A stretch of 59,125 nt of DNA. Origin: Candidatus Zixiibacteriota bacterium (GTDB lineage Bacteria; Zixibacteria; MSB-5A5; UBA10806). The stretch lies in assembly GCA_024641335.1 (NCBI GenBank), contig JAHEDG010000002.1, forward strand, positions 58,791 through 117,915. The letters are read 5' to 3'. The number at the start of each line of letters is the position of its first letter. The first letter of the stretch is position 1. Position numbers and translations under genes: made by a program. Positions 12,260 to 40,096 of this stretch are shown one piece after another. The notes below the pieces were generated by a model, which worked only from the letters and a program-made list of their open reading frames with translations, was not told where the DNA came from and ran no database searches.

Positions 12260-12304
12260 CAGCACCTCCTTTAATGGTTTTTAAGAATACTATACATATT
12301 ATCT

Positions 12305-13522: not shown

Positions 13523-15022
13523 CTAAAATCTCACCGGCATCTCCGGCCAGATTTCCCATGGCCAGAAGAAACCCCAGTTTGGTCCGCGCAGCCAGGTGCC
13601 CACAACAGTCAGGATTATAAACGCCGCCACAAAACAGGAGAAAAGAGCTATCGATGCCGTCCGAGCGGAACCGCTTATCTTCCTGGCCGCGAAAAACAGT
13701 ATTATCATGGTCAGAAGCAGACCGGTGGCGGGATTTAAAATATCGAACCAGATCTGGCTGGAGAAAATACCTCCGAGCAGTTCTCTCGATGGAAACTGAA
13801 TTCCGACGAAGATGGTCAGGCAGGTTAAGGCCGTTCCGACCATCGCGCCGATATACATCCACTTTTTATCTGCCGGTTGAATCAACCATCTTCCGACAAG
13901 CTTATTCTCGCGGTCGACCCATGGTATCAGCATCAGACCGAGTACCGCCAAACCCGGTATCAGCACGCCTCCCATAAAGGCGCTGTAACTGACCAGCTCC
14001 TGCAAACCGAGAAAATACCACGGAGCTTTCGCGGGATTGGGCGTTATGGAAGGATTGGCCGCCTCCTCCAAAGGCGCCGAAAATAACAATGCCAGAACCG
14101 AGGAGATCAAAAGAGTTAATATTATCACGATGGTGATCCTGCGGGTCAGGTGGGGCGAGCTGGAAAGCGAGTTTTCGGATGTCAGGATCTGGCGGTCGTA
14201 GATATGGACCGATGTACCTTTGGCGATACCCATCAGAGCATATGATTTCGAGCTTTTTTCATCTATATCGGAAGTCTCGGTTGTACTGCTTTCTTCCTTG
14301 ACCATTTCCATAGCGGCCAGACCGCCGTCCTTTCGCACTCTCCACATATGCCAGGCGGCTATGGCAAATAAGATAACCGGCAGGAAAAAGACATGCAGGA
14401 CATAGAACCTGATAAGAGTATTTTGTCCGATCAGCGATCCGCCCAGTATAAACTCCCTGATCATCTGCCCGAATACCGGCACGGCGGAAGCAATAGATGT
14501 TCCCACGGTTATAGCCCAGAAAGCCAATTGATCCCAGGGGAGCAGGTATCCGGTAAAGGATAAAAGGAGAGTCAAAACCAGGAGGATAACTCCGAGCACC
14601 CAGTTAAGCGACCGGGCCGAGCGTTTGAACGACCCCTTCTTATAGGCTCCTGTATAAAACACCCTGAACATATGCAGGAATACCACTCCCACCATCAGGT
14701 GAGCCGTTATTCTATGCAGGGACCGGAGGAAATAACCAAAACTGACCGCGAATTGCAGGTCTTTGATCGACCAATAGGCTCTTTCCACCGACGGCACATA
14801 TAGAAACATCAGAGCTACCCCGGTAACGCACAATATCAGGAAGAGCGTAAAGGAGATTGTCCCCAGCCAGAGTGAATAACCCCATGATAGTCCCTTGATG
14901 CTGACTCTGTTCGGAAACCAGTGAAGCAGAAAGTTCTTCACTATAGCATCTCCGGCTTCCCTGTTGCTTTCCGGACGCCACGACCAGATAAGCTTGTTTA
15001 AAAAGGCCATTATCGCAGTCAT
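13523..15022 (-). CDS. cytochrome b (b6 and subunit IV fused)
   Basis: A 499-residue quinol-oxidising cytochrome b with about eight membrane helices. Two His pairs for the b hemes are visible: [11 protein letters not shown] with LHMFRVF, and FYVLHVFF with AAWHMWRV. The Qo-site motif corresponding to PEWY is present as APWYFLG after residue 325. A charged soluble stretch (about 240-290) joins the b6-like half to the subunit IV-like half. Together with the Rieske protein and pentaheme cytochrome it should form a menaquinol:cytochrome c oxidoreductase feeding NosZ. Confidence 0.93.
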
Positions 15023-15030
15023 ACGCTCCT

Positions 15031-15549
15031 CTAAATAGTTATCCTGAAATCGCTGTCTACGGAGGTGGAAATATCCACTACCAACTGGCCGTCCTCAGGG
15101 GCGATCTCCAGCTTGTGCCAGGGCAATGACGACGGAGCCGGCCCGGAATAGGGCATTCCGTTCTGCCTGAACTTGGACCCGTGGCAGGGACAATGAAATT
15201 CATATTTTTCGGTTATCTCTCTGCCGCCGACCTTTACAGTCTGTGCATGTTGAAGCGGCGCGTATTTGACAGTGCATCCGAGATGCGTGCATTTGGCTGA
15301 AATCGATGAGTATTGACTGCCTTCCCTGATTATAAATAATCCCTTCGATTCGATAAAGTTGATACCCTCGGCGAACTCCACGGGGGAACCGACCTTGAAT
15401 TTTTTCGGAGGCTCATATTTTATATTGGGGACAAGAGCTCTCAGATATGTCCATCCCTGGCCCAGAAAGGCCGCGGCAAACGCCCCGAGCGTAATCTTGC
15501 CAAGAAAAGAACGGCGCCCGTTGGCCGCGCCCTCGGATCCGGTTTGCAT
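15031..15549 (-). CDS. Rieske iron-sulfur protein
   Basis: A 172-residue Rieske protein. The [2Fe-2S] ligand motifs CTHLGC and CPCHGS are both present, with the disulfide cysteines. The N-terminus has a twin-arginine motif, GRRSFLGK, before a hydrophobic anchor, as is usual for Rieske proteins exported by Tat. It partners with the cytochrome b encoded directly downstream. The chosen start is the ATG at 15549; a GTG two codons earlier lies inside the GGAGGAGAG ribosome site. Confidence 0.94.
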
Positions 15550-15551
15550 TA

Positions 15552-17471
15552 TCACTCTCCTCCGATAATATCGTGAAAATTAAATCTCTCCATCGTCCAG
15601 GCGTCGGTAGGGCAGATCTCGGCGCAAAGTCCGCATCGGATACATCGATCATGATCCTTTAGCATTACGCTGTAATCATTCCCCTCGACGGCCGCTTGCT
15701 CGAACCGGGCGACATCCAGACCCTCTATATTGACTTTTTCAAAAGGTACCAGGGCCAGACATTCCTCCGGGCAGACGTCGACACAGGCCCCGCAAAGAAC
15801 GCAAAGTTCCGAATCGTATACCGTTTCCACATGGCACTGCAGACACCTCTGAGCCTGTCGGACAGCCTCCTTCTCGCCGTAAACCTGCTCTACCTCGGTG
15901 ATCCCGGTTCGCCTGTCCAGCGGAATAGTATCCGGCCGGCATCGCCGCGTTTTCTCGTAGGCCGGTGGCATAACATATTCGTCAATGGGTATTTTTTCGA
16001 TACTGACTCTCGTTCGGAACGATCTTGCGCTCGAACGCAGGTAGCGATCTATAGAACGGGCAGCCCTTTTGCCGTTTTCCACCGCCTCGATCAGAATTCT
16101 AGGTCCAAAAGCGACATCGCCTCCGGCGAATATGCCCGGAGCCGAACTGGCCATGGTTTCCGGATTTATCCTGATCAGACCGTTGGGAGTAAGATCTATG
16201 CCGTCGACTGGTTTGATAAAGCCTGTATCGGCCTGCTGTCCTATGGCCAGGATGACACTGTCGCAGGGGAAATAATGTTCGCTTCCCTCTATAAATTGAG
16301 GATTAAATCGCCCGTTATCGTCAAAAACCCTGGCGACCTCGATCAGTTTTATCCCTTTGACCCTGCCGTTCTCGCCGATTATCTCGGCGGGTCCTCTTGA
16401 TGGCTGAAAATTTATTCCTTCCAGTTTGGCGTCTTCCATCTCTTCGAAGCCTTGAGAGGTTTTGGCCGCGGGCATCTCATCGAATGATTCCAGAGAGGCA
16501 ACTACAATATCGCGGGATCCCTCGCGCATGGCGCTTCTGGCGACATCGATAGCGGTATGCAGATCGCCGGCTTTGGCCGCGGTATCGATCGCGTCTTTCG
16601 GTGAATAGTAACCTCTGAGCGCCGTCCGGGCGGCATCCAGAGCGACGCTTCCGCCTCCGATCACCACGACCTTCTCGCCGAGTTCGACTTTATAGCCTAA
16701 ATTGACATTTATCAGGTAATCGACCGCCTTCAGGACTCCATCCAGGTCAGATCCCGGTACTTTCAGACTACGGCCGGCCTGCGTTCCCACCGCTACGAAT
16801 ACGGCGTCGAATCCATCGGCCTTCAATTCGGCGATCCCGTAAGCGGGGGTCAGTGGCGAGTTGGTTTTGATCTTTACGCCGAGGCTCTGAATATTACTGA
16901 TTTCCTTGGCGATTACCGATCTCGGAAGCCTGTATTCCGGAATTCCCAGACGAAGCATACCGCCGGCCTCTTCCGCCGCCTCAAAAACGGTTACATCATG
17001 CCCCATTAGGGCCAGGTCATGAGCGGCTCCCAATCCAGCCGGACCGGAGCCGATAACCGCCACTTTTTTCCCGCTCGGAGCGGGGTTAAGCGGAAAAGCT
17101 CCCAGATGTCCCGGAGATTGAGCTCCGGCCGATTTCTCTCCCATAAGCAAAGATCTGAAACTGTTCGGCTGCTGAGATTCGCTGCCGTAGCGTTCCGTTA
17201 GAAATCGCTTCAGCGCCCGAATAGAAACCGGATCGTCGATCGCTCCCCGCCGACAGGCGTCCTCGCATGGAGCGGCGCAGACCCGTCCGCAAATCGAAGC
17301 CAGTGGATTGGGCGAACGAACTACCTGAAAAGCTTCGGCGAAGCGCTCATCGGCTATGAGCTGAACATACTGTCCGGAATCGGTATCCACCGGGCAGGCA
17401 AGGCGGCAGGGAACGTTATTTCTATACCATTCCAAACCGTAGGCCCGAGTATTAATACGATTTTCATTCAT
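15552..17471 (-). CDS. GltD-like NAD(P)H oxidoreductase with C-terminal ferredoxin domain
   Basis: A 639-residue FAD and iron-sulfur protein. The N-terminal GltD-type [4Fe-4S] domain has CRLACP (Cys22, Cys26) and CGRVCAAPCEDAC (about 60-73). A first dinucleotide fold has VAVIGSGPAGLG (about 136) and a second has VVVIGGGSVALDAA (about 267). The C-terminal ferredoxin domain has two clusters, CVLCGACVDVCP and CIRCGLCAEICP. It resembles glutamate synthase beta-subunit-related oxidoreductases that pass electrons from NAD(P)H. As first gene of an operon with Rieske, cytochrome b and NosZ, it probably supplies or regulates electron entry. No ribosome site precedes the ATG, suggesting a leaderless message. 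Confidence 0.88.
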   Translation of the reverse strand: MNENRINTRAYGLEWYRNNVPCRLACPVDTDSGQYVQLIADERFAEAFQVVRSPNPLASICGRVCAAPCEDACRRGAIDDPVSIRALKRFLTERYGSESQQPNSFRSLLMGEKSAGAQSPGHLGAFPLNPAPSGKKVAVIGSGPAGLGAAHDLALMGHDVTVFEAAEEAGGMLRLGIPEYRLPRSVIAKEISNIQSLGVKIKTNSPLTPAYGIAELKADGFDAVFVAVGTQAGRSLKVPGSDLDGVLKAVDYLINVNLGYKVELGEKVVVIGGGSVALDAARTALRGYYSPKDAIDTAAKAGDLHTAIDVARSAMREGSRDIVVASLESFDEMPAAKTSQGFEEMEDAKLEGINFQPSRGPAEIIGENGRVKGIKLIEVARVFDDNGRFNPQFIEGSEHYFPCDSVILAIGQQADTGFIKPVDGIDLTPNGLIRINPETMASSAPGIFAGGDVAFGPRILIEAVENGKRAARSIDRYLRSSARSFRTRVSIEKIPIDEYVMPPAYEKTRRCRPDTIPLDRRTGITEVEQVYGEKEAVRQAQRCLQCHVETVYDSELCVLCGACVDVCPEECLALVPFEKVNIEGLDVARFEQAAVEGNDYSVMLKDHDRCIRCGLCAEICPTDAWTMERFNFHDIIGGE

Positions 17472-18997: not shown

Positions 18998-20698
18998 ATG
19001 AAAAAAACGTTAATGGTGTTTTTGCTACTGTTGCTTTTCGCCGTCCTGGCGCTGGCGGAAAAGCCCGCAAAGCTGAATCGCGCGCCGGTGCCTTTTGACG
19101 GCCGCAACGCCTATGAGGGGAACATCGCGGTTCCCCCATCGAATCCGGTTATTTCAAGCTCGCCGGGAGACAGTATCGGAGTCTCCTACTATGCCTACCA
19201 GACCAATGGTTCCACCGGAAACAGGATTTCTGTTGATTCCGATGGTAATATCCATGTCGCCTGGACCAAGGGTATGGCCGCCGCAGGCAGGCCGCGGTAT
19301 GTGAACTATAATTACCGGGATTCTGATAATAACTGGCTGGGAGATACCAGAGTGAGCACGGATAACGGAACAGGTTTTGTCGTTATGGATATCCTGCCGG
19401 ACGGTCGTGCTATACCCGTATACCACACGGCCGATGTCACTCCATCGCATTCTATCCTGGCGCGAGATGCTTTTGCCGGATTTGGTATTTTCGAGGAATT
19501 CGATATTCCGTCAAATGGAATCGAATATATCTGGCCTTACGCGTCGCGAGATTTCAATGGTAAAATCCATGTGATTAACGCCGATTACAATTCGACCAAC
19601 CTGGCTTATACCTATTCTACTAATGATGGTGAAACCTGGGCCGCATATACGATTTTCGGAACTTATGATGTTCTCAGTTACACAATCTGCAGCTCGCCAG
19701 TCTCACCCAAAACCGCGATTTTGTATACTTTCGATACCGGATCAGGTTTCAGCGACGTGTTTTATTTCGAAACGACAGATGGTACTAACTGGAACTGGGG
19801 TGACCCATACAATATCACCGAGTTTGTTTCCAGCGACTCGATGTCGGCCTATGCCGACATAGACGGCATTTACGACTACAACGATAATCTTCATATCGCC
19901 TACCAGGGACAGCTGGCCGATGCCGACGGAGTCTATATCGTCGGCGACCTGATGCATTGGAGTGTCTCCACCGGACATAATTTCGTCGCGTCATCGCCGG
20001 ATAATTGTTCGCCCATTAACTATTGTACATGCATATGCAAAATGAGCCTCGGTGTGAATCCGGTTAATAATAACCTCTATGCCCTCTGGTCGGAGCTTTC
20101 CGAGGATGATGTCTCCGCCGCCGGTTTTTCCAATGGCGAGCTCTATGCCGCCGCTTCGGCTGATGGCGGCGCCAACTGGTTCGAAAAGGTCAATCTGACC
20201 AATTCGCCTTCCCCTGGGTGCAGCCCGCCTAACTGCGACAGCGATGTCTGGTCATCCTTGGCTGAGAAGGTAGACGGCGATCTGCACATCATGTATATTG
20301 ATGACAATGACGCCGGAGCCGAATGGCGCCCTGAAGGAGCCTGGACCAACAACAGAGTCCTGTACCTGGAAATCGACGAACTGGATCTTCTGCCGACAGC
20401 GGTACATGACGATATCGATCTGCCCTTCGAATTCAATCTTGGAGAGAACTACCCGAACCCATTCAACGCCGAAACCATAATCCCGCTCGAGGGGGAACTC
20501 AGGGACGGACGAGTAGCCATTTATGATATCGCCGGACGCCTCATCAGAGACTTTAATATAACTTCAGAGACCCACTCAATCACCTGGGACGGTACCAACA
20601 GCGCCGGAACGGTTGTCTCCAGCGGTACCTATTTTTACTCGGTCAGCTTCGACGGCTTCGGAACAGCCGCCGTCAGGAAGATGACGATGCTGAAGTAA
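18998..20698 (+). CDS. secreted sialidase-fold protein with T9SS C-terminal sorting signal
   Basis: A 566-residue exported protein with a Sec signal peptide (about 1-20). The middle looks like a BNR/Asp-box beta-propeller: STNDGETWAAY (about 206) and SADGGANWFEK (about 387) match the S-x-D-x-G-x-x-W box, and VDSDGNIHVAW, FNGKIHVI and YNDNLHIAY mark successive blades. The last ~85 residues form a Por-type sorting domain with the NYPNPFN motif, VAIYDIAGRLIRDF and GTYFYSVSFDG, as used by the type IX secretion system. No catalytic sialidase residues could be assigned. Ribosome site GGAGGAGAG precedes ATG. Confidence 0.88.
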   Translation: MKKTLMVFLLLLLFAVLALAEKPAKLNRAPVPFDGRNAYEGNIAVPPSNPVISSSPGDSIGVSYYAYQTNGSTGNRISVDSDGNIHVAWTKGMAAAGRPRYVNYNYRDSDNNWLGDTRVSTDNGTGFVVMDILPDGRAIPVYHTADVTPSHSILARDAFAGFGIFEEFDIPSNGIEYIWPYASRDFNGKIHVINADYNSTNLAYTYSTNDGETWAAYTIFGTYDVLSYTICSSPVSPKTAILYTFDTGSGFSDVFYFETTDGTNWNWGDPYNITEFVSSDSMSAYADIDGIYDYNDNLHIAYQGQLADADGVYIVGDLMHWSVSTGHNFVASSPDNCSPINYCTCICKMSLGVNPVNNNLYALWSELSEDDVSAAGFSNGELYAAASADGGANWFEKVNLTNSPSPGCSPPNCDSDVWSSLAEKVDGDLHIMYIDDNDAGAEWRPEGAWTNNRVLYLEIDELDLLPTAVHDDIDLPFEFNLGENYPNPFNAETIIPLEGELRDGRVAIYDIAGRLIRDFNITSETHSITWDGTNSAGTVVSSGTYFYSVSFDGFGTAAVRKMTMLK

Positions 20699-29603: not shown

Positions 29604-29630
29604 GTGTTTATCCATTTATGCAGGTGGTGT

Positions 29631-30131
29631 GTGTCTAAGAGCAATCGACAGGATATCAATCCCATGATGGGGATAGCATACGCGGTACTCGTATTGTCGT
29701 CTTTGAGCGGATACGCGGTTTCGGCTCAAACTGTGACCTCTACCAATGATTTGGCATTCGGAAACATATTTCCCGGAGTTCCCAAGGCTATCGTTAAAAG
29801 CTCGGTCGGCGATGCCGCTGAATTCACAGTAACCGGCACCACCGGGGCCGAGGTAACCCTGGATTTTACGCTTCCTGCTTACATGTATACCACCGGCGCA
29901 AATATGCCCTTGTTTTTCTCCAGCAGCGATTGTGCAGTCGATTCCACCAATCCGCAGGACCAGTCAAACCCCAGCGCGAATAATTTAAATCCAAATGGAA
30001 CTATAACTTATAGGATCGGCTCCAACGGTATGAGTGTCTGGCTGGGGGGGCGTGTCGTTCCGGGACTGGTGCAAAAATCAGGTTCTTACACCGCTACTAT
30101 AAGGCTGACAGTGGCTTACACCGGTTTTTAG
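29631..30131 (+). CDS. DUF4402 fimbrial-subunit-like protein 1
   Basis: An exported protein of ~166 residues with a signal peptide ending at VSAQ. The DUF4402 fold is recognisable: LAFGNIFPG near the start of the mature part, FTVTGTTGAEVTLDFTLP, and the closing VWLGGRVVPGLVQKSGSYTATIRLTVAY. It has one Cys and carries N/P-rich SNPSANNLNPNG instead of the D-rich insert of its neighbours. It heads a run of paralogues, chaperone and usher, so it is probably a pilus or surface-fibre subunit. I chose the GTG at 29631 (AGGTGG just upstream), because the fourth paralogue has a similar VSK-x-N-x-RQ beginning. Confidence 0.8.
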   Translation: MSKSNRQDINPMMGIAYAVLVLSSLSGYAVSAQTVTSTNDLAFGNIFPGVPKAIVKSSVGDAAEFTVTGTTGAEVTLDFTLPAYMYTTGANMPLFFSSSDCAVDSTNPQDQSNPSANNLNPNGTITYRIGSNGMSVWLGGRVVPGLVQKSGSYTATIRLTVAYTGF

Positions 30132-30334
30132 GCCGTTTTTAGGATCTTAAAAACTATTCTATTATGAAACATATACTGTTTCAGTTCTTAGTTTGCCATC
30201 CAATAAAACTAAAGGACAGTTGATTAACTGGCGATTCTATAAACGCGGCCAGATAAATCAAGGTAGGTGCCGTAAAACAGATGCTGCGGGAAAGTGTACT
30301 AAGGATGAATAGAAATAAATTCAAGGAGGACAAC

Positions 30335-30892
30335 ATGAAAAGCCTAAGAGCATTACGTCTATCAAGGAAGATTATGATGCTAACAGGCACAATCCTGATC
30401 TTATCGTTTGGATTCAGTTTAGCTCAGGATGCGGCCACAGGTTCGGCCACGGCCACAGTACAAACTATTATCACGGTTACAGCTACCCAGGCATTGGCGT
30501 TCGGTAACGTCTTCCAGGGTGTAAGCAAGACCGTCGGGGATAACGTCGATGCGTCGTCCGGTATCTTTACCATTACCGGTCAGGCTGGAGCAGGCGTCAA
30601 TCTTCAAATGATCCTGCCGGATTATATGGCTCTGGCGGATGGTTCTGACCGTATGACCATTACTTTCAGCACAACCGACGCGGCAGTCGATACCAACGGC
30701 GCCACTCCTTCGACTGTAGTCGCTGGTGACGGTTGGGTCGATCAGAATCCCAGAGTTCTGCCCGCGGCGGCAGTAGTTGGCGCTGCCAATACAGCCATCT
30801 ATTTGGGTGGAAAAGTAACTCCCACATCCGACCAGGCCGCCGGCGCGTATTCGGCGGATATCGTTCTTCTGGTAGCTTACGACGGCACCTAA
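30335..30892 (+). CDS. DUF4402 fimbrial-subunit-like protein 2 (likely major subunit)
   Basis: A 185-residue exported protein with signal peptide ending SLAQ. The mature N-terminus, ATGSATATVQTIITVTATQ, alternates hydrophobic residues like a donor strand, followed by LAFGNVFQGV, FTITGQAGAGVNLQMILP and the final YLGGKVTPTSDQAAGAYSADIVLLVAY. It is preceded by the best ribosome site of the cluster (AAGGAGG six bases before ATG) and followed by its own terminator, so it may be the most abundant subunit. It is closely similar to subunits 3 and 4. Confidence 0.87.
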   Translation: MKSLRALRLSRKIMMLTGTILILSFGFSLAQDAATGSATATVQTIITVTATQALAFGNVFQGVSKTVGDNVDASSGIFTITGQAGAGVNLQMILPDYMALADGSDRMTITFSTTDAAVDTNGATPSTVVAGDGWVDQNPRVLPAAAVVGAANTAIYLGGKVTPTSDQAAGAYSADIVLLVAYDGT

Positions 30893-30931
30893 GCCATATA
30901 AAGAAAGCCGTAGATTTCAAGGCGTTTATGG

Positions 30932-30959
30932 GGAGCCGATCAGGCTCCTCTTTTTTTTA
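30932..30959 (+). terminator. terminator after DUF4402 subunit 2
   Basis: Stem ggagcc/ggctcc with loop gatca followed by eight T residues. It lies inside the pilus locus and would lower transcription of downstream subunits, chaperone and usher relative to subunit 2. Confidence 0.88.
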
Positions 30960-31079
30960 TCCATAATACAGCCTATATCCCTGAACCCCTGCTAAATAAG
31001 GCGATATATAGAATCAATGAATTATAGTTATTTTCTGTTAAAAATATGCGCGTTCTGTCGATAAAAATACTGGAGCTGA

Positions 31080-31098
31080 CTGTTTCAAAGGGAAACAG
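31080..31098 (+). promoter_or_regulatory. inverted repeat ahead of DUF4402 subunit 3
   Basis: Perfect 7-base arms ctgtttc and gaaacag around a 5-base loop, 14 bases before the ATG of subunit 3. It could be an operator or a translation-controlling hairpin; no ribosome site is otherwise visible there. Confidence 0.45.
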
Positions 31099-31112
31099 TT
31101 TGTCTGAACGAT

Positions 31113-31670
31113 ATGTGTGAATCTGGAAGAATTTTAAAACTTGTCTGGAAACCGGCGCTGGTCGTGCTTCCCGTTCTCCTATGGGCATATCCGGCTGCCG
31201 GTCAGGATGTAGCTGTAGGATCGGCTACCGCAACGGTGGTAACCACGATTTCAGTTACGGCCTCAAGCCCCCTGGCCTTCGGTGACGTTATGCAGGGGGT
31301 GCCGGCGTCGATTGCGAATAACAACGCCTCGGCGGCGATCTTCGAAATAACCGGACAGGCCGGTTCGGGAGCCGATCTTTACCTGCAGCTGCCGGAATAT
31401 CTGGCCTTATCCGACGGCAGCGACAGAATGACCATAACGTTCGGCTCTACCGATGCTTCGGTTGACACTACGGGAGCAGCGGATCCGGCAGCCATGAATG
31501 CCGGTAAAGGGTGGCAGAATACGAATCCTTACAACTTGCCGGCGGCGGCGGTTATCGGGGCGGCGGGGACAGATGTTTATTTGGGGGGAAAAGTGATCCC
31601 GTCCCCAAGTCAAAAAGCGGGAAATTATTCCGGCGATATCATCTTAACGGTAGCATATAATGGCAGCTAA
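31113..31670 (+). CDS. DUF4402 fimbrial-subunit-like protein 3
   Basis: A 185-residue exported protein with signal peptide ending PAAGQ. It shares with subunits 2 and 4 the N-terminal alternating strand (VGSATATVVTTISVTA), LAFGDVMQGVP, FEITGQAGSGADLYLQLP, the SDGSDRMTITFGSTDASVDT insert and YLGGKVIPSPSQKAGNYSGDIILTVAY. It lies after the terminator of subunit 2 and overlaps the next subunit by 11 bases, so the later genes form a second transcription unit or depend on read-through. Confidence 0.85.
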   Translation: MCESGRILKLVWKPALVVLPVLLWAYPAAGQDVAVGSATATVVTTISVTASSPLAFGDVMQGVPASIANNNASAAIFEITGQAGSGADLYLQLPEYLALSDGSDRMTITFGSTDASVDTTGAADPAAMNAGKGWQNTNPYNLPAAAVIGAAGTDVYLGGKVIPSPSQKAGNYSGDIILTVAYNGS

Positions 31671-32271
31671 AGTGAGCAAAAACAGCAATAGTCGGCAGAT
31701 GAGATTCTCTATGGGCAATTGGTCGATATTTAACATTCGGCTGCTTAAACTGGCGATCGTAACTGTTGCGCTATGGGCGATTTTATCGCCTTTGAGCGCG
31801 CTTGATTTCAGCGACGGTACGGCTTCTGGAACAGTGCTAACGATAATAACGGCTGCCGCGACGCAGGATCTGGCCTTCGGAAATATTCTCCAGGCGGTTC
31901 CTAAATCCATAGGTTACAATAATGACGCGTCGTCGGCGATCTTTACCATAACAGGAGAGGCCAGCGCCGGAATCAACCTGCAGTTGATATTGCCTGAATA
32001 TGTTTCGTTGTCGGATGGCTCCGATCGAATGACCATCATATTCTCATCGACCGACGCCGCTGTAGATACTACAACTGTGACCCCGTCAACGATCAGCGCT
32101 TCCGACGGCTGGATCAATCAGAATCCATATTATCTTCCGGCATCAGCGGTAATTGGATCCGCGGGCACAACTAAAATATATCTGGGAGGCAAAATAGTGC
32201 CATCGGTTGACCAGACACCGGGAACGTATTCGGGAGATATTGTACTGAGCGTTTCATATAACGGTTCATAG
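31660..32271 (+). CDS. DUF4402 fimbrial-subunit-like protein 4
   Basis: An exported DUF4402 protein of up to 203 residues, with a longer basic leader before the signal helix. Motifs are as in its paralogues: LAFGNILQAVP, FTITGEASAGINLQLILP, SDGSDRMTIIFSSTDAAVDT and YLGGKIVPSVDQTPGTYSGDIVLSVSY. The start is either ATG at 31660, inside the previous gene's end, or GTG at 31672 just past that stop; the GTG gives an N-terminus like that of subunit 1. It is followed by the chaperone gene. Confidence 0.83.
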   Translation: MAAKVSKNSNSRQMRFSMGNWSIFNIRLLKLAIVTVALWAILSPLSALDFSDGTASGTVLTIITAAATQDLAFGNILQAVPKSIGYNNDASSAIFTITGEASAGINLQLILPEYVSLSDGSDRMTIIFSSTDAAVDTTTVTPSTISASDGWINQNPYYLPASAVIGSAGTTKIYLGGKIVPSVDQTPGTYSGDIVLSVSYNGS

Positions 32272-32309
32272 TAAATGAAAATTGTAACAGGAAGACAGGA
32301 GTGCTTAGG

Positions 32310-33179
32310 ATGCCTGAACTTAGTATAAACAAGATAAAAATGGGCGGGGCAATACGCAATTGGTACATGGCGGCTCTGTTTGTTCTGCTCTTCGCGGCCA
32401 ATATATCGGCTGGGGTTCTTGTCGCCCCGACCGTGGTTTTTCTTTCCGAAACCAACCGGACCGGACGGATCACTCTGCAAAATCCGACAGATGTTCCTCA
32501 AGAAGTTAATATCTTCTTCAGTTTCGGTCTTCCAGTCTCCGACAGCCTTGGTAATGTTTCTGTGATATTACAGGATTCAGTCACCGGCGATCCCAAATCG
32601 GCGATGGATTGGGTAAAAGCGTTTCCGAGAACGGTTGTTTTACCCCCGGGAGGGAACCAGACAGTAAGACTTGTGATCAAGCCGCCGGACGATCTTCCTG
32701 ACGGAGAATACTGGGCCAGAATCGTGGTTCGCTCTCAGGATGCCCGCGGCACGGTTCCCCGGGCCGATGACAATACCGGCATTTCCACACAGCTTAATAT
32801 GGTAATTCAGACGGCTATCATGCTCAAATACCGAACAGGTGAACTGATCTCCAACCTTGAGCTGACATCAGCCGGGGCTCGACTTGACGGGAATATAGTA
32901 CAGGTAATGCTGGACATGGTATGTAGAGGAAATGTCTCGTATATGGGTATTCTCCACTCACGGGTACTCGATAAAAACAATAACGAAATAGGCCGGGGCA
33001 AAATCAACCTGGCGGTATACAGGAATTTAAGACGGCGGATCGATCTGCCCATAACAATTGAGAATAGTAATCCTCCTTACAGAGTAGAGGTGAGGATAAC
33101 GAGCGAAGGACGAACCGATGTGCCTCCTCCGGATATGATATCCGGAAACGAGATCGTTCGCACTTTGAATCTGGAATAA
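32310..33179 (+). CDS. PapD-like periplasmic pilus chaperone
   Basis: A 289-residue exported protein with signal peptide to about residue 33. The first Ig-like domain begins VLVAPTVVFLSETNRTGRITLQNPTDVPQEVNIFF and continues through FPRTVVLPPGGNQTVRLVIKPP to DGEYWARIVVRSQ, the strand order of PapD-family chaperones. The second domain starts near QTAIMLKYRTG. These proteins hold pilus subunits by donating a strand until delivery to the usher. It is longer than classical members (~240) and diverged in the FGS/FGL region. ATG at 32310 lies eight bases after AGGAG. Confidence 0.8.
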   Translation: MPELSINKIKMGGAIRNWYMAALFVLLFAANISAGVLVAPTVVFLSETNRTGRITLQNPTDVPQEVNIFFSFGLPVSDSLGNVSVILQDSVTGDPKSAMDWVKAFPRTVVLPPGGNQTVRLVIKPPDDLPDGEYWARIVVRSQDARGTVPRADDNTGISTQLNMVIQTAIMLKYRTGELISNLELTSAGARLDGNIVQVMLDMVCRGNVSYMGILHSRVLDKNNNEIGRGKINLAVYRNLRRRIDLPITIENSNPPYRVEVRITSEGRTDVPPPDMISGNEIVRTLNLE

Positions 33180-33218
33180 GTGCGATTGCGGCCGGGAGTA
33201 CATTAAACAGAATATGAA

Positions 33219-35783
33219 ATGATTGAAATGAAACCGATAAATAAGCTCAAGCTGCCGATTATCGCGGCTCTCATTTTTCAGGTCATGATCAGTAGCCTCG
33301 CCGAAGCCGTGGAAACCGAAGAGATAGTTGTCGGCTTTAAAGTCCATCGCTTAATCGAACGGGATATCATGGCTCTTTATGGCGGCGGAGATGTATATCT
33401 TCCGGTGATGGAGATATTCGGCTTGCTGGATCTGAATATAAAAACGGATAATTCCCGACGGCGGTTCAGCGGTTTTATAATCTCCAAAAAAGAGATGTTC
33501 GAGATAGATCTGATCGGAAGCGTGGGCAGGTTCGAAGACCGCTCCATCAGCCTTTCCGCGTCCGACTACGTAATAACTCCAGGTGAATTGTATCTCAGGC
33601 TCGAGCTATTCGAGCAGCTGTTCGGTCTGGATATGGAGTTTGACTATTCCGAATTGCAGGTCAATCTCAAGCTCAACGAAGAATTTCCGTCATTTTTGAA
33701 AATGAAGCGGCGGAAGAAGCATGAAATGCTCCTGACCAGAAAAACGGCGCTCAAAGATATAAAACGTCTTGAAAGAAAATGGGAGTATCTCGGAGGAGGG
33801 GTAGTTGACTGGTCGCTCTCTGCCAGTCCTTACGGCGGCGGAGGGCAATATTATAATCTCGCTTTCGGCGGAATGCTATTGGGCGGTGATTTGAGTGTTG
33901 TCGGCGGAGGGAATTCTATCAGCGGATTCGATTATAACCAGTTGGGATATAAGTGGCATTACTACCTGGGAGACAATCATTATCTGTCTCAAGCCGAATT
34001 GGGTGACGTTTACACAAACGGCCTGCTTGCCCGGCAGCTAAGGGGCGGGTTGTTCACGAACAGGCCACAGACTCAAAGGAAGTTTTTTCAGACCATCGAT
34101 CTTTCCGGGCAGCTTGAAGAAGGCTGGGAAGTGGAATTGTATATAAACAATCAATTGACTGATTTTACTTATACCGATTATTCGGGGGAATATAATTTTA
34201 ATATCGATATCAACTACGGAACCACCGATATTACTTTGAAAATGTACGGGCCGAACGGGGAGATCCTGACCGAGAGAAGACATGTCGGTATCCCCTATAA
34301 TCTGATTCCCGGAAAGCAATTCGAATATTATGTGGCGTCAGGGATATCCGACGCGAATAGCAAAGATAATAACTACATTCAAGCCGGCGGTTTATATGGA
34401 ATAAACAACAGCCTGACTATCGGGATCGGCTCTGATTTTCCCGTGGGCTCTGAAGATGGAGAGAAGCCTATAATATCCGGCGAATTGACCGGGCAGGTCG
34501 CCGGCAACATGACGGCCAACGCCTCACTCGCTCCAGGATACGCCGGCAGTATCGGCATGAATTACATACAGCCGTCAATGATAAATATCGATTTCGGTTA
34601 TACCCGGTATTTTAAAAACCGATTCAGAAACAGACCGGGTCAGCTCCATCGGCTGGCGATTTCGATCTCTTCTCCTCTTAAAATCGGTCAACGCTACTAT
34701 AGTCTCCGTTATTCGGCGTACTGGAACCGCTTTCCTCTCTATAACTCGATAAACATGAACTACGGGTTCAATACATCCCTTTTGGGATTCTACTATAACT
34801 ATATGGGGCAATCGAAAATTTCAATTTATCCCGATCGAACCGATAATAAGATATCGAGCGACCTTTTTATCTCTCCGACGTTTATCCGATGGCTGAAGCC
34901 GCAGCTTAGAGTTTCGTATGATCACGATTCAAAAAGCTTCGAACGTTACGGGATTCAAATTAACAGACGGTTGTTCAAATCGGGGCAGCTTTCTATCTCT
35001 TATGAACGGAATGAAATCTCTGGTTCATCGACATTCATGCTGACATTCAAAATACTAAGCTCATTCGCCGATTTTTCATCACGGGTTATCCATTCCGGCG
35101 ATATATCGTCGATAACCCAGATGCAGAGAGGCTCGGCCCAATATGATAAAGAGGCCCGCAGACTGAGATTTACCCGTAGAAACGGGGTTGGTTACGGTTC
35201 GGCTGTTGTTCGTCCGTTTGTCGACTTGAACTACAACGGGGTACTCGATCGAGACGAAAAGCTTAGCCCGGGGTTAAAAGCCAGGATTCAAGGCGGGCGG
35301 GAAAGCCAGAAGGGAAAAGGAAAACGTTATTACTATGATGGCCTTCGGGCGTACGATCAATATCTGGTCGAAATCGATCCGAACAGTCTTGATAATCCTC
35401 TGCTGGTACCGGCTCACGATAATTATGAAATAAACTGCAATCCCAATATCGTAACCGCTATTGATGTACCGTTGGTGACCGCCAGCCAGATTAGCGGAAA
35501 GATCCTAAGAAGAATCGGCGATATTGAGACCGGACAGGGCGGAATTACCTTGAATTTGATCAATCTTTCCAAGGAAAGCGTAACGGCAATTACCACTTTC
35601 TCCAACGGCGAATTTTATTATCTGGGGCTGGTACCAGGGCTTTATCGGGCCTATATAGACCTGGAGCAGCTGGAAAGATACGGATATGTATCCGAGCCCA
35701 ACGAAATCGAGTTTCTGGTCGAGCCTGTCGAAGGCGGAATGTCTATTGAAGATATCAATTTTGTTATGGTCCCCGGAAAATAG
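33219..35783 (+). CDS. usher-like outer-membrane assembly protein
   Basis: An 854-residue exported protein. An N-terminal domain (about 30-160) with LPVMEIFGLLDLNIKTDN is followed by a barrel with many amphipathic strands. Near 290-350, QTIDLSGQLEEGWEVELYINNQLTDFTYTDYSGEYNFN and DITLKMYGPNGEI match the usher pattern of vector to named small organic periplasmic motifs seen in fimbrial ushers: a V-x-V-Y-x-N-G-like strand, then G-x-F and a D-x-x-G. The C-terminal part has a calcium-loop-like DLNYNGVLDRDE (about 668-679) and a carboxypeptidase-regulatory/CNA-B-like Ig domain. It is last in the pilus gene run and would form the secretion pore. Confidence 0.75.
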   Translation: MIEMKPINKLKLPIIAALIFQVMISSLAEAVETEEIVVGFKVHRLIERDIMALYGGGDVYLPVMEIFGLLDLNIKTDNSRRRFSGFIISKKEMFEIDLIGSVGRFEDRSISLSASDYVITPGELYLRLELFEQLFGLDMEFDYSELQVNLKLNEEFPSFLKMKRRKKHEMLLTRKTALKDIKRLERKWEYLGGGVVDWSLSASPYGGGGQYYNLAFGGMLLGGDLSVVGGGNSISGFDYNQLGYKWHYYLGDNHYLSQAELGDVYTNGLLARQLRGGLFTNRPQTQRKFFQTIDLSGQLEEGWEVELYINNQLTDFTYTDYSGEYNFNIDINYGTTDITLKMYGPNGEILTERRHVGIPYNLIPGKQFEYYVASGISDANSKDNNYIQAGGLYGINNSLTIGIGSDFPVGSEDGEKPIISGELTGQVAGNMTANASLAPGYAGSIGMNYIQPSMINIDFGYTRYFKNRFRNRPGQLHRLAISISSPLKIGQRYYSLRYSAYWNRFPLYNSINMNYGFNTSLLGFYYNYMGQSKISIYPDRTDNKISSDLFISPTFIRWLKPQLRVSYDHDSKSFERYGIQINRRLFKSGQLSISYERNEISGSSTFMLTFKILSSFADFSSRVIHSGDISSITQMQRGSAQYDKEARRLRFTRRNGVGYGSAVVRPFVDLNYNGVLDRDEKLSPGLKARIQGGRESQKGKGKRYYYDGLRAYDQYLVEIDPNSLDNPLLVPAHDNYEINCNPNIVTAIDVPLVTASQISGKILRRIGDIETGQGGITLNLINLSKESVTAITTFSNGEFYYLGLVPGLYRAYIDLEQLERYGYVSEPNEIEFLVEPVEGGMSIEDINFVMVPGK

Positions 35784-35811
35784 TTGTTATAGATAGATCG
35801 CTATTAAATTA

Positions 35812-35850
35812 CAGGATATGCCCGCGAGGGTGCCGTGTGCGAATATCCTG
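35812..35850 (+). terminator. possible hairpin after the usher gene
   Basis: Eight-base arms caggatat and atatcctg (35812-35819, 35843-35850) around a 23-base loop, 30 bases after the stop. There is no T-run, so its role as terminator is uncertain. Confidence 0.4.
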
Positions 35851-35944
35851 AATATAATAACTAAAGATCCCAACACAACGAGCGAACAGACTTCTCATTT
35901 CAGAACCAGGAAAACTAATCTATAGTTTTGTCTTTGCCGGCCCG

Positions 35945-36469
35945 CTAGTTACCAGTCAAAGTTACTGTCAGCTCTACCGAGCCGCTGTACGCCCCGCTGC
36001 CTTGACCTATGGTCGGATTAACGGTGCCGCCGATCCATACCATCAAACCTCCACCCGAACCCAGGATAGTGGTGGTAACTACCGCCGGGTCGATAGCCGC
36101 CGTAGGATTTGACTGGTCATTTAACGGATCATTGGCATATGACGCGTCGGTGCTGGAAAAGCTGATCGCCAGATTGCTGGCCCCCGAAGTCAGATTTACC
36201 GGCACTGTGAAATCAAGCGTGATCTCCGCCCCGGCCTGGCCTGATACGGTCCATTCGCCCGCCAGGCCGACATCCGTTTTGTCGACCAACTTATTGACAC
36301 CGAGACTCACAGTTTGGAATTGCAGATCGTTGGTGCCGTTGACTGAAAGGGTTGAAACTACAGTCGCCAGGGCTTGAATTGAAGCGCTTTCCTGCGCGAA
36401 AAGACTATCGCCGAAAGCTATCAAACATAGTCCGACCCCGAGGATAACAGAGAATAATTTTCTGAACAT
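35945..36469 (-). CDS. DUF4402 fimbrial-subunit-like protein 5
   Basis: A 174-residue exported protein, divergent in sequence from the other four and on the opposite strand. The signal peptide ends SLFAQ; the mature part has IQALATVVSTLSVNGTNDLQFQTVSLG, WTVSGQAGAEITLDFTVP, DQSNPTAAIDP and the closing VWIGGTVNPTIGQGSGAYSGSVELTVTL. Like subunit 1 it has the DQSNP insert and a VW-GG segment, so subunits 1 and 5 form one subtype. Ribosome site GAGGAGGGG precedes ATG. A sigma-54-like promoter lies 44 bases upstream. Confidence 0.85.
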   Translation of the reverse strand: MFRKLFSVILGVGLCLIAFGDSLFAQESASIQALATVVSTLSVNGTNDLQFQTVSLGVNKLVDKTDVGLAGEWTVSGQAGAEITLDFTVPVNLTSGASNLAISFSSTDASYANDPLNDQSNPTAAIDPAVVTTTILGSGGGLMVWIGGTVNPTIGQGSGAYSGSVELTVTLTGN

Positions 36470-36981: not shown

Positions 36982-38757
36982 TTGGGAATTAACGAGGAAA
37001 TTCATTCGAAAAAACCGGCGGTCGCCGGGGGCGGTAAACGATCTGGCGAGATTCGAGAACTGGATCGCCGTTTGCTGCTTTTGGCGTACGGTGGAGATCC
37101 CGGAATAGAGTTTCATCGGGAAGTTTGCAGGTTGATCCTGGAAGATTCCGGATGCGAGTCTCTCGAACTATGGTTCAGGGAAAAGCAGAAATTCTATAAA
37201 TGCGAAATGTCCACAGCAATTTCCGGCGATTTCAAATACGAAATTACCCCGAGCGTCGAGGATGAGCGGGGGATTCCAATCCCGGTTATCCGGGAGGATT
37301 CGATATTCGCCGAATTGCGTCGGATGCTTATCAAGGGGAATCTCCCCGATAGCTTGAGAGAATATTCGCGCGGTAATTCGCTTTGCGTAAACAATATCGA
37401 TCAGTTCATATCGTCTCAATGGCCGACAATCTCCAGGACAACAGCGTCATCATATCGTGAATCAGGACTCAAAGGTTCGGTTACTGTCATCCCGGTAGAA
37501 TTTTGCTATGAGACTATCGGCGTACTGCAATTATCATCCGAGCGAAAACGATATTTCGAACCGGCTGAGATAAAGCTATATGAAAATATCGCCCGCACGC
37601 TGGGAATCGTTCTGATGACTCAGCAGGCTCAATCTGCCCTGCGAGAGCGGGTTAAGGAGCTTACCTGTCTATATAGCATTTCCCAGGTCGCGGAGCGCGA
37701 GGGGATCACTCTCGACGGTATTCTGCAGGGGATCGCCGAATTGCTTCCCCCGGCCTGGCAATACCCTAAGGCGACCGTGGGAAGAATTGTTTTGGACGGC
37801 AGTATTTATTCATCGCCCGGTTTCCAGGAACTCGAACAAAGTCAGAAATCCAATATTGCGGTTAGTGGAATCAAACGGGGATTTGTCGAGGTGGTTTACA
37901 CAAGCTCGAAACCCGAGCTCGATGAAGGCCCCTTTTTGAGAGAGGAACGAAGCCTCATTAACGCTATCGCCCGTGAAGTAGCCATGATTGTAGAGCGTAA
38001 AGAGGCGGCGGACGAAAAAACCAGGCTTCAGGAACAGCTGCGTCATGCGGATCGGCTGGCAACGATCGGGCAGTTGGCCGCGGGTGTCGCCCATGAGATA
38101 AACGAGCCTTTGGGAAGTATGCTCGGATTCGCCCAGTTAGCCGGAAAGCATCCGGGATTGCCGGAACAGGTGGAAAAGGATATCTCCAAAATAGAAGCCG
38201 CCTCGCTGCACGCCAGAGAGATTGTTAAAAAACTCATGCTCTTCAGCCGTCAGATGCCCCCGCAAAAAAAGCCTGTCGACCTAAACAGGATGATCGATGA
38301 AGGTCTATATTTCATCAAGTCCAGATGCAGGAAAAGCAATATCGAGATCATCCTTGATCTGGGAGTCGATTTGCCGGTTATTATCGCCGACCAATCTCAA
38401 ATTTATCAGGTTCTGGTCAACCTTGTTGTTAACGCCGTTCAAGCTATGCCTGACGGAGGAAAATTGAAAATCGCAACGGGATTTAACGAGGACTATGTAA
38501 TCATGGCAATCGAAGATACCGGAATCGGAATGGATGAGGAAATTCAGAAAAAAATATTTCTGCCGTTTTTTACTACCAAAGAGATAAACGAAGGGACCGG
38601 AATCGGCCTTTCGGTGGTTCACGGTATTGTTACCCTGCATGGCGGGCAGATCGATGTTTCCAGCCGGCCGGGTGAAGGCACCCGGTTCGAAATCTTTCTT
38701 CCAGTCAAGAGCCGCGGGGGAAATCAAGAAGAGGCGGATAATGACAGACGGGATTAG
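36982..38757 (+). CDS. GAF-domain sensor histidine kinase
   Basis: A 591-residue cytoplasmic kinase with no membrane segment. Two GAF-like regions (about 30-200 and 215-335) precede a HisKA domain with the H-box AGVAHEINEPLGSM (His near 371) and a HATPase_c domain with the N-box NLVVNAVQAM (about 480), G1 EDTGIGMD, F FLPFFTTK and G2 GTGIGLSVVHGI. All catalytic motifs are intact. It senses an internal signal, perhaps redox or a small molecule, and should phosphorylate the NtrC-type regulator whose start overlaps its end by 17 bases. The start is TTG with GGAG seven bases upstream. Confidence 0.9.
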   Translation: MGINEEIHSKKPAVAGGGKRSGEIRELDRRLLLLAYGGDPGIEFHREVCRLILEDSGCESLELWFREKQKFYKCEMSTAISGDFKYEITPSVEDERGIPIPVIREDSIFAELRRMLIKGNLPDSLREYSRGNSLCVNNIDQFISSQWPTISRTTASSYRESGLKGSVTVIPVEFCYETIGVLQLSSERKRYFEPAEIKLYENIARTLGIVLMTQQAQSALRERVKELTCLYSISQVAEREGITLDGILQGIAELLPPAWQYPKATVGRIVLDGSIYSSPGFQELEQSQKSNIAVSGIKRGFVEVVYTSSKPELDEGPFLREERSLINAIAREVAMIVERKEAADEKTRLQEQLRHADRLATIGQLAAGVAHEINEPLGSMLGFAQLAGKHPGLPEQVEKDISKIEAASLHAREIVKKLMLFSRQMPPQKKPVDLNRMIDEGLYFIKSRCRKSNIEIILDLGVDLPVIIADQSQIYQVLVNLVVNAVQAMPDGGKLKIATGFNEDYVIMAIEDTGIGMDEEIQKKIFLPFFTTKEINEGTGIGLSVVHGIVTLHGGQIDVSSRPGEGTRFEIFLPVKSRGGNQEEADNDRRD

Positions 38758-40096
38758 CGGCGAAAAGATACTTGTCGTCGATGATTCTCCCGACACGCTA
38801 GAAGTTATACGGCGCAATTTGGTTTCACAGGGCTATAAGGTCTTTACGGCGCCCGGGGTTGAGGAGGCGTTGGGAATATTGAGTTCGACATCTGTCGACC
38901 TGGTGATTACCGATTTGAAGATGCCCAGGGCCAGCGGCCTGGACCTGGTTCGGCATGTCAGGGAAAATCTGAAGAATACGGAAATAATAATGATAACCGG
39001 CTTCGCCTCGATCGAGGGGGCGGTCATGGCGGTGAAAATGGGGGCCGAGGAATATCTGGCCAAACCGTTTACCGACGATGAGCTGTTTACCGCCGTAAAA
39101 AAGTCGCTCGAAAAGCTAAAGATGCGCAGGACAGCTAATGGGAAACTTCCGACACAGGTATCCGATGATTCTTTCGGGTTGATTGGAGTATCCAGATCAA
39201 TCCGGAATGTTTTTGATTCTATCCGCAAAGTAACATCGACCAGCGCCAACGTGCTGATAATCGGGCAGAGCGGCACTGGCAAAGAATTGGTCGCCCGCGC
39301 GATTCACTATAGCGGGAAAAAAACCTCGACCCCGTTCGTACCGGTCAATTGCGGAGGTATTCCCGAAGGTTTGCTCGAAAGCGAGCTGTTCGGGTATGTC
39401 AAAGGAGCGTTTACCGGAGCGACAGAGACCCGTGCCGGATTTTTCCAGACCGCCGACGGCGGGACGATATTCCTCGATGAGGTCAGCGAAACAAGCCTAT
39501 CCATGCAGGTTAAGCTACTGCGAGTACTTCAGGATAAAGAAGTCTTTATGGTCGGAGCCACCAAACCGCACAAAGTCAACGTGAGGATTTTGGCCGCTAC
39601 CAATAAAGATCTTATAGGCCTGGTCAAGAAGGGCTTGTTCAGAGAAGACCTTTATTTTCGTTTGAATGTCATTACTATCTCGATTCCTCCCTTGAGGGAG
39701 AGGGGTGATGATATACTCATACTCGCCAACCATTTCGCCGAGAGGTTCGCCGCCGAGATGCCGCGGGCAGCTCCGCGGTTCTCCGACAGGGCGTTGGAGG
39801 TCTTGAAAAACTATTACTGGCCCGGCAATGTCCGGGAGCTCGAAAACGTAATCCAGCGCCTGGTAGTCATGACCGACGGCGATATAATCGACGCCCCGGA
39901 TTTGCCGTCGTTGATGAGATTTTCCCCGTTACGGCAAACCGGATTTGACAGGCCTTTGGCTGAAGTCGAAGCCGAGTATATCAAAAATGTCCTGACCAGC
40001 GTTGGCGGCAATAAAACCAAAGCGGCCGAGATTCTGGGCATAGATCGCAAAACCCTTCGTGAGAAGTTGAAGAGCGCCGATTCAGAAACATCATGA
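38741..40096 (+). CDS. NtrC-family sigma-54-dependent response regulator
   Basis: A 451-residue activator: receiver domain (about 8-120) with [15 protein letters not shown] and AKPF; AAA+ domain with Walker A GQSGTGKE (about 174), the sigma-54 contact loop GAFTGA (about 221), Walker B GGTIFLDE and the arginine-finger region; C-terminal Fis-type helix-turn-helix [22 protein letters not shown]. It remodels sigma-54 polymerase at GG/GC promoters. Two such promoters flank the kinase/regulator pair (36513 and 40283). The ATG at 38741 is preceded by AGAGG; a longer frame begins inside the kinase gene but would prepend non-receiver sequence. Confidence 0.93.

Follow-up and report, generated by a model that had tools for sequence, protein, structure and literature searches.

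Chaperone-usher pathways have been divided into three groups and six clades, with the classical and alternative groups found only in Beta- and Gammaproteobacteria and the archaic systems known from many phyla (PMC9452303). In the archaic (sigma) Csu pili of Acinetobacter baumannii, an N-terminal segment of the subunit serves as the donor strand Gd, which is inserted into the preceding subunit (PMC9452303). The chaperones CsuC and EcpB, the latter from the alternative (alpha) ECP system of Escherichia coli (EcpABCD), use an arginine in strand F of domain 1 (Arg89) in place of the classical pair (PMC4654587).

We analysed a stretch of 59,125 nucleotides from a Candidatus Zixiibacteriota bacterium (contig JAHEDG010000002.1, positions 58,791 to 117,915; hereafter the window), which at 29604-36469 carries genes for five DUF4402 proteins (S1 to S5), a PapD-like chaperone and an usher-like barrel protein. 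A preliminary description, made from the sequence alone, had read these seven genes, each of which is indeed an open frame (Table 1), as a chaperone-usher locus of divergent type whose subunits are DUF4402 proteins, and this reading is supported by the usher model, the profile homology of the chaperone and the pilin matches of the subunits. It is very probable that the seven genes together make up a full chaperone-usher pathway for secreting and assembling a predicted thin surface fibre, with an usher from a deep lineage that also includes Proteobacterial members and is separate from the sampled classical and archaic ushers. S1, S3 and S4 match the Pfam DUF4402 model above its cut-off of 25.2 bits, while S2 (23.6 bits) and S5 (20.9 bits) score slightly below it and are clear homologues of the other three. 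For S1, S2 and the chaperone, translation may begin further 3' than the mechanical ORF start, and the true start of S1 is probably near 29664.

Table 1. Features of the probable DUF4402 chaperone-usher locus, in window coordinates
Feature	Position	Strand	Basis
S1, DUF4402 subunit, putative tip	29604-30131	+	DUF4402 E 2e-7; without N-terminal donor segment
S2, DUF4402 subunit, first major-type, putative rod	30281-30892	+	Homology; terminator directly 3'
S2 predicted donor strand, residues 49-64, QDAATGSATATVQTII	30425-30472	+	Homology with S3 and the archaic SCPU N-terminal segment
Intrinsic terminator GGGGAGCC-GATCA-GGCTCCTC-TTTTTTTT (8 T)	30930-30950	+	Located after S2
S3, DUF4402 subunit, major type	31113-31670	+	DUF4402 3.4e-6; AF2 model; PDB fold matches
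S3 predicted donor strand, residues 31-46	31203-31250	+	Unpaired in monomer model; SCPU alignment
S4, DUF4402 subunit, major type	31660-32271	+	DUF4402 match; 11-nt overlap with S3
PapD-like periplasmic chaperone	32301-33179	+	PapD_N, profile homology, invariant R140
Divergent outer-membrane usher, 854 aa	33219-35783	+	AF2 model, Foldseek, hhalign, tree
Usher N-terminal periplasmic domain, residues 31-150	33309-33668	+	AF2 secondary structure
Usher beta-barrel, residues 191-643, about 24-25 strands	33789-35147	+	AF2 model, Foldseek
Usher plug-like insert, residues 304-358, five strands, after barrel strand 6-7	34128-34292	+	AF2 model, hhalign
Two usher C-terminal periplasmic domains, residues 648-852	35160-35774	+	AF2 model; second SdrD_B/CarboxypepD_reg-like
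S5, DUF4402 subunit with donor segment	35945-36469	-	Homology; displaced and inverted relative to relatives

Neither single-sequence nor profile searches of Pfam, NCBIfam and the PDB returned an usher match for the barrel protein, and the usher profile PF00577 matched 0 of its 27 orthologues. We modelled it with AlphaFold2 from 41 orthologues (pLDDT 86, pTM 0.68) and obtained an N-terminal domain, which has no PapC_N match and is PF07833-like in three orthologues, a helix at residues 157-179, and a barrel followed by two C-terminal domains. When this model was compared with the PDB using Foldseek, ranks 1-18 were all FimD or PapC (E 6e-28 to 1e-12, about 12% identity), with the best full-length alignments running to ~900 columns and the next match falling to E 8e-9. 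In a profile comparison with nine E. coli ushers (hhalign; 97%, E 8e-11), the 621 aligned columns take in the plug, which together with the motif after it, VPYNLIP...EY.VA.G...Y.QA..YG, is paired with the FimD region containing VPYSSVP...Y.I.AGEY...F.QS..HG. By predicted fold and profile comparison, the barrel protein is an usher. The preliminary description had held that a barrel lacking plug and chaperone-binding regions would speak against this reading; in the model, by contrast, a plug-like insert is present and two domains follow the barrel at the C-terminal end. The protein is organised like the ushers of the classical type 1 and P pili (FimCD, PapCD), with barrel, plug and C-terminal domains, but its identity to them is 12%.

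The chaperone likewise yielded nothing real from the PDB in single-sequence and profile searches, and its match to PapD_N is sub-threshold (17.3 bits); the same domain is matched by 20 of its 26 orthologues, at best with 4.7e-6. An hhalign comparison with E. coli chaperones gave 94.9% and 4.6e-8, covering domain 1 and the G1 strand, and from its length and alignment the protein would be a two-domain, PapD-like chaperone. The classical Arg8/Lys112 of type 1 and P pilus chaperones are replaced by Val and Met in the window protein and are basic in 0 of the 26 orthologues. R140, by contrast, is invariant in all 26 and stands four residues past a conserved Glu, the same Glu+4 position as Arg89 of CsuC and EcpB and as the arginine of six SCPU-locus chaperones; this register rests on the Glu as anchor rather than on structure, because the alignment program itself placed R140 one column off. 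The conserved arginine suggests that the window chaperone belongs with the non-classical type: it resembles the Csu chaperone in having a strand-F, domain-1 Arg instead of the classical pair (PMC4654587, PMC9452303), and the ECP chaperone in the position of this Arg relative to the conserved Glu. As for the archaic/alternative domain-2 anchor Tyr196/Arg174, an invariant Tyr240 lies one column off, and no Arg equivalent is seen in Zixibacteriota.

The AF2 model of S3 (87 sequences, pLDDT 89) is all-beta except for the signal peptide, and its residues 31-46 are unpaired in the monomer. An alternating hydrophobic strand at the start of the mature subunits had been noted earlier; the segment quoted then, SATATVVTTISV, corresponds to S3 residues 37-48, and such a segment is present in S2-S5 and corresponds to the donor strand of archaic pilins. 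In a profile comparison that drew on only six SCPU pilins, the DUF4402 segment DVAVGSATATVVTTISVTASSPLAFG aligns to SCPU TASTTFLVTATVNNECQITATNMVFG (67%), and the C-terminal strand Q..G.Y...I.LTV.Y is also shared (54%, same six pilins), so that the subunits resemble those of Csu at both ends. Unlike Csu, however, the window subunits are DUF4402 rather than SCPU proteins, and S2, S3 and S4 have no paired cysteines. Against E. coli pilins, hhalign detected no profile similarity except in the last strand, which sets the subunits apart from those of type 1 and P pili. A Foldseek search of the PDB with the S3 model returned mostly chaperone-usher pilins (CsuE, Caf1, PapE, CfaB, PapA and FimA), and a few of the top matches are unrelated beta-sandwich proteins; as the pilin matches, though mostly of probability >0.9, have E 3.6e-3 or worse and TM 0.35-0.5, these fold matches alone constitute moderate evidence. 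The preliminary description would have yielded to DUF4402 proteins predicted as complete Ig folds; the N-terminal segment left unpaired in the model, together with the predominance of chaperone-usher pilins among the PDB matches, would be compatible with an incomplete fold.

The subunits differ in the region that carries this segment. From the signal-peptide core to the L.FG motif the median distance is 31 residues in S2-S4 (n=95) and 30 in S5 (n=24), whereas it is 15 in S1 (n=35); the S1 orthologues are ~15 aa shorter here, and the donor segment is absent from them. The tip adhesins of type 1, P and Csu pili sit distally and cannot donate a strand. Since the distal tip is the only possible place for a family without a donor segment, we propose S1 as the tip subunit, which would give the system a donor-strandless tip as in type 1 and P pili; the lectin-like tip adhesin, two-domain in those pili, is missing from the window locus. 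S5, with its N-terminal donor segment, would not fit the tip role. The earlier division of the subunits into S1 and S5 versus S2, S3 and S4 thus stands by sequence, S5 being the best window paralogue of S1, but not functionally, as S5 has the donor segment and S1 does not. A lone Cys (..DCA.D..) is found in 29 of 35 S1 orthologues, including that of the window, and in no S5; unpaired cysteines are unusual in periplasmic or surface proteins.

A second distinction among the subunits lies in the intergenic region after S2, which contains an intrinsic terminator. Thirty loci have two or more major-type genes. In 15 of them the first major gene is followed by a terminator-like hairpin and T-run, and none follows the other subunit genes downstream of the first major, or S1 (0/30, 0/24, 0/30). 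When only relatives with a gap of >150 nt are counted, the hairpin is present in 15 of 25; shuffled gaps produce one 0.1 times on average and at most once. From the position of the terminator after the first major gene, S2 is probably the rod (major) subunit: partial termination past this gene would yield more of S2 than of any other subunit, which is what one expects of a rod. Promoter-like sites at the locus were not above shuffles.

From these components we infer a fibre built by donor-strand exchange. The DUF4402 proteins would reach the periplasm as Ig-like pilins that lack one strand, and the PapD-like chaperone would cap the groove of each via its G1 strand. The usher would then recruit the chaperone-subunit complexes, catalyse donor-strand exchange and extrude the fibre. 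S1 would be assembled first and so come to lie at the tip, S2, made in excess, would form the rod, and S3 and S4 may be minor or adaptor subunits; the role of S5, perhaps a further subunit at the base or an adaptor, is the least certain. The fibre might serve in attachment.

Relatives of the locus were found by an alignment scan, a single-protein scan of genome contigs having found none. They are named Candidatus Zixiibacteriota, and the earlier guess of an FCB-type host was therefore right. The operon is kept in about half of 133 Zixibacteriota genomes: the usher is present in 64 of the 133 genomes of the class, DUF4402 in 58 and both in 56 (Fisher p 5e-26), indicating that it is conserved as a unit. 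PF00577 ushers occur in 0 of these 133 genomes (the E. coli control was positive), as does SCPU (the named controls were silent, and the same model finds 9 of 143 gammaproteobacteria). The usual order in the relatives is S5, a small gene, S1, two or three majors, chaperone and usher. The window locus deviates from this in that S5 is inverted and downstream of the usher and the small gene is absent; since relatives have S5 upstream and on the operon strand, its position in the window is a local rearrangement.

The small gene of the relatives encodes a secreted protein of about 95-165 aa that is conserved and fast-evolving (e.g., L072:3900-4253, L101:3258-3689, L109:3633-4097 and about 20 others), and an ORF lies between S5 and S1 in 22 of the 23 loci having both. 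The protein begins with an (S)ASI.A.A.V segment resembling that of S5 and then diverges; it is possibly a variable subunit or an adhesin. Four Zixibacteriota genomes (L058, L059, L060 and L061) have a second kind of DUF4402 system. The second-kind ushers of L058 and L060 cluster with Proteobacterial ones in the usher tree, which suggests that this second system was acquired by horizontal transfer.

The system is not restricted to FCB bacteria, since the same DUF4402 operon is found in Alpha-, Beta- and Gammaproteobacteria. Operons of Polaromonas, Sphingopyxis, Ferrimonas and Pseudoalteromonas that are annotated as DUF4402, ‘molecular chaperone’ and ‘carboxypeptidase regulatory-like’ have the same gene order and a homologous usher and chaperone, and are members of the same system; the Proteobacterial ushers are annotated as either carboxypeptidase-regulatory-like or SdrD B-like. 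Ferrimonas aestuarii has two such operons, and on plasmids of Polaromonas, Sphingopyxis and Pseudoalteromonas the same usher adjoins a chaperone; of the five plasmid regions inspected, four include annotated DUF4402 genes. These operons differ from the window locus in having fewer subunit genes (in some loci a single short DUF4402 gene), SPOR domains on some ushers or neighbours, and a chaperone with mostly His at the R140 position and Arg two residues earlier. A third usher of the family in Ferrimonas (L114:7206-10511) has SPOR domains at its C terminus, and neither a DUF4402 gene nor one for a chaperone was recognised alongside it.

Across 143 gammaproteobacterial genomes, DUF4402 occurs in six and a DUF4402-type usher in six, five being shared; the usher count is of near-full-length matches only, as most whole-profile matches are to the C-terminal SdrD-like domain. 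PF00577 is found in none of the six DUF4402 genomes. In the same sample SCPU occurs in nine genomes, PF00577 in eight and both in seven. The Zixibacteriota models match the ushers and chaperones of the DUF4402 loci, and the E. coli models those of the SCPU loci. We then computed an unrooted usher tree (36 rows, LG+C20+F+G4) in which the alternative ushers are represented by EcpC only. A 100/99 branch divides all 21 DUF4402 ushers from the classical and archaic ones and from EcpC, which lies beyond this branch as a long branch adjoining the split. The six archaic ushers group together at 100/99 and are placed with the classical ones; the DUF4402 ushers thus differ from that of Csu both in lying outside the archaic branch and in being undetected by PF00577.

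As far as computation tests it, the DUF4402 system has the properties by which chaperone-usher systems in general are defined, and it falls outside the classical and archaic definitions that were tested. We lean towards regarding the DUF4402 systems as a fourth deep chaperone-usher group beside the alternative, classical and archaic ones, with its own pilin family, an usher family that current domain models do not detect, a range reaching from a candidate FCB phylum to the Alpha-, Beta- and Gammaproteobacteria, and a single-domain, donor-strandless DUF4402 tip; with an unrooted tree and a single alternative usher, such a fourth group is likely, short of proven. It is improbable that this is instead an ordinary archaic (sigma) system whose usher and subunits have merely drifted in a fast-evolving lineage: the SCPU ushers group with the classical ones and all 21 DUF4402 ushers lie beyond the 100/99 branch, DUF4402 loci in the gammaproteobacterial sample never occur with PF00577 whereas SCPU does in seven of nine genomes, and the Zixibacteriota usher and chaperone models match DUF4402 loci and not SCPU loci. 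In favour of drift are the non-classical Arg of the window chaperone, the resemblance of DUF4402 to SCPU in the N-terminal segment and C-terminal strand, and the known occurrence of archaic systems in many different phyla (PMC9452303).

Two further readings concern what the locus makes. The barrel might export DUF4402 proteins that do not polymerise, in a surface-coat or spore-coat-like pathway without a fibre, as could be supposed from the single short DUF4402 gene of some Proteobacterial loci; several paralogous subunits with a conserved alternating segment, one subunit that lacks the segment, and a terminator that would control dosage fit a polymer of tip and rod, and we hold a fibreless pathway to be quite unlikely. 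That the barrel is an unrelated outer-membrane protein and a chance neighbour of the chaperone is hardly credible, given that the fold search and profile comparison identify an usher and that the chaperone adjoins the barrel gene across phyla, even though the protein has no sequence match to PF00577 or any PDB usher and its C-terminal SdrD_B/CarboxypepD_reg-like domain is common in surface proteins. If the reading as an usher-built fibre of a separate lineage is true, a further deep chaperone-usher group has escaped notice through the annotation of its ushers as "carboxypeptidase regulatory-like" and of its pilins as DUF4402. DUF4402 would then also gain a function, usher-built fibres would be known from an uncultured phylum too, and the evolution of chaperone-usher assembly could be viewed against an outgroup-like lineage. 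The open-access literature (subscription papers and preprints being outside this scope) contains no mention of DUF4402 or PF14352, nor of Zixibacteria with chaperone-usher systems.

Directly next to the locus lie genes for a GAF-containing histidine kinase and an NtrC-like response regulator (36982-40096); we weighed whether they belong to it and left them out because they are not conserved neighbours in relatives. Elsewhere in the window, a nitrous oxide reductase-like protein with nos_propeller and cupredoxin domains (10331-12265, minus strand) has a gene that clusters with those for cytochrome b and Fe-S oxidoreductases (13523-17471). The product of a gene at 18998-20698 (plus strand) has a C-terminal FlgD-Ig/CHU_C/Por_Secre_tail-like domain and is possibly a type IX secretion substrate.
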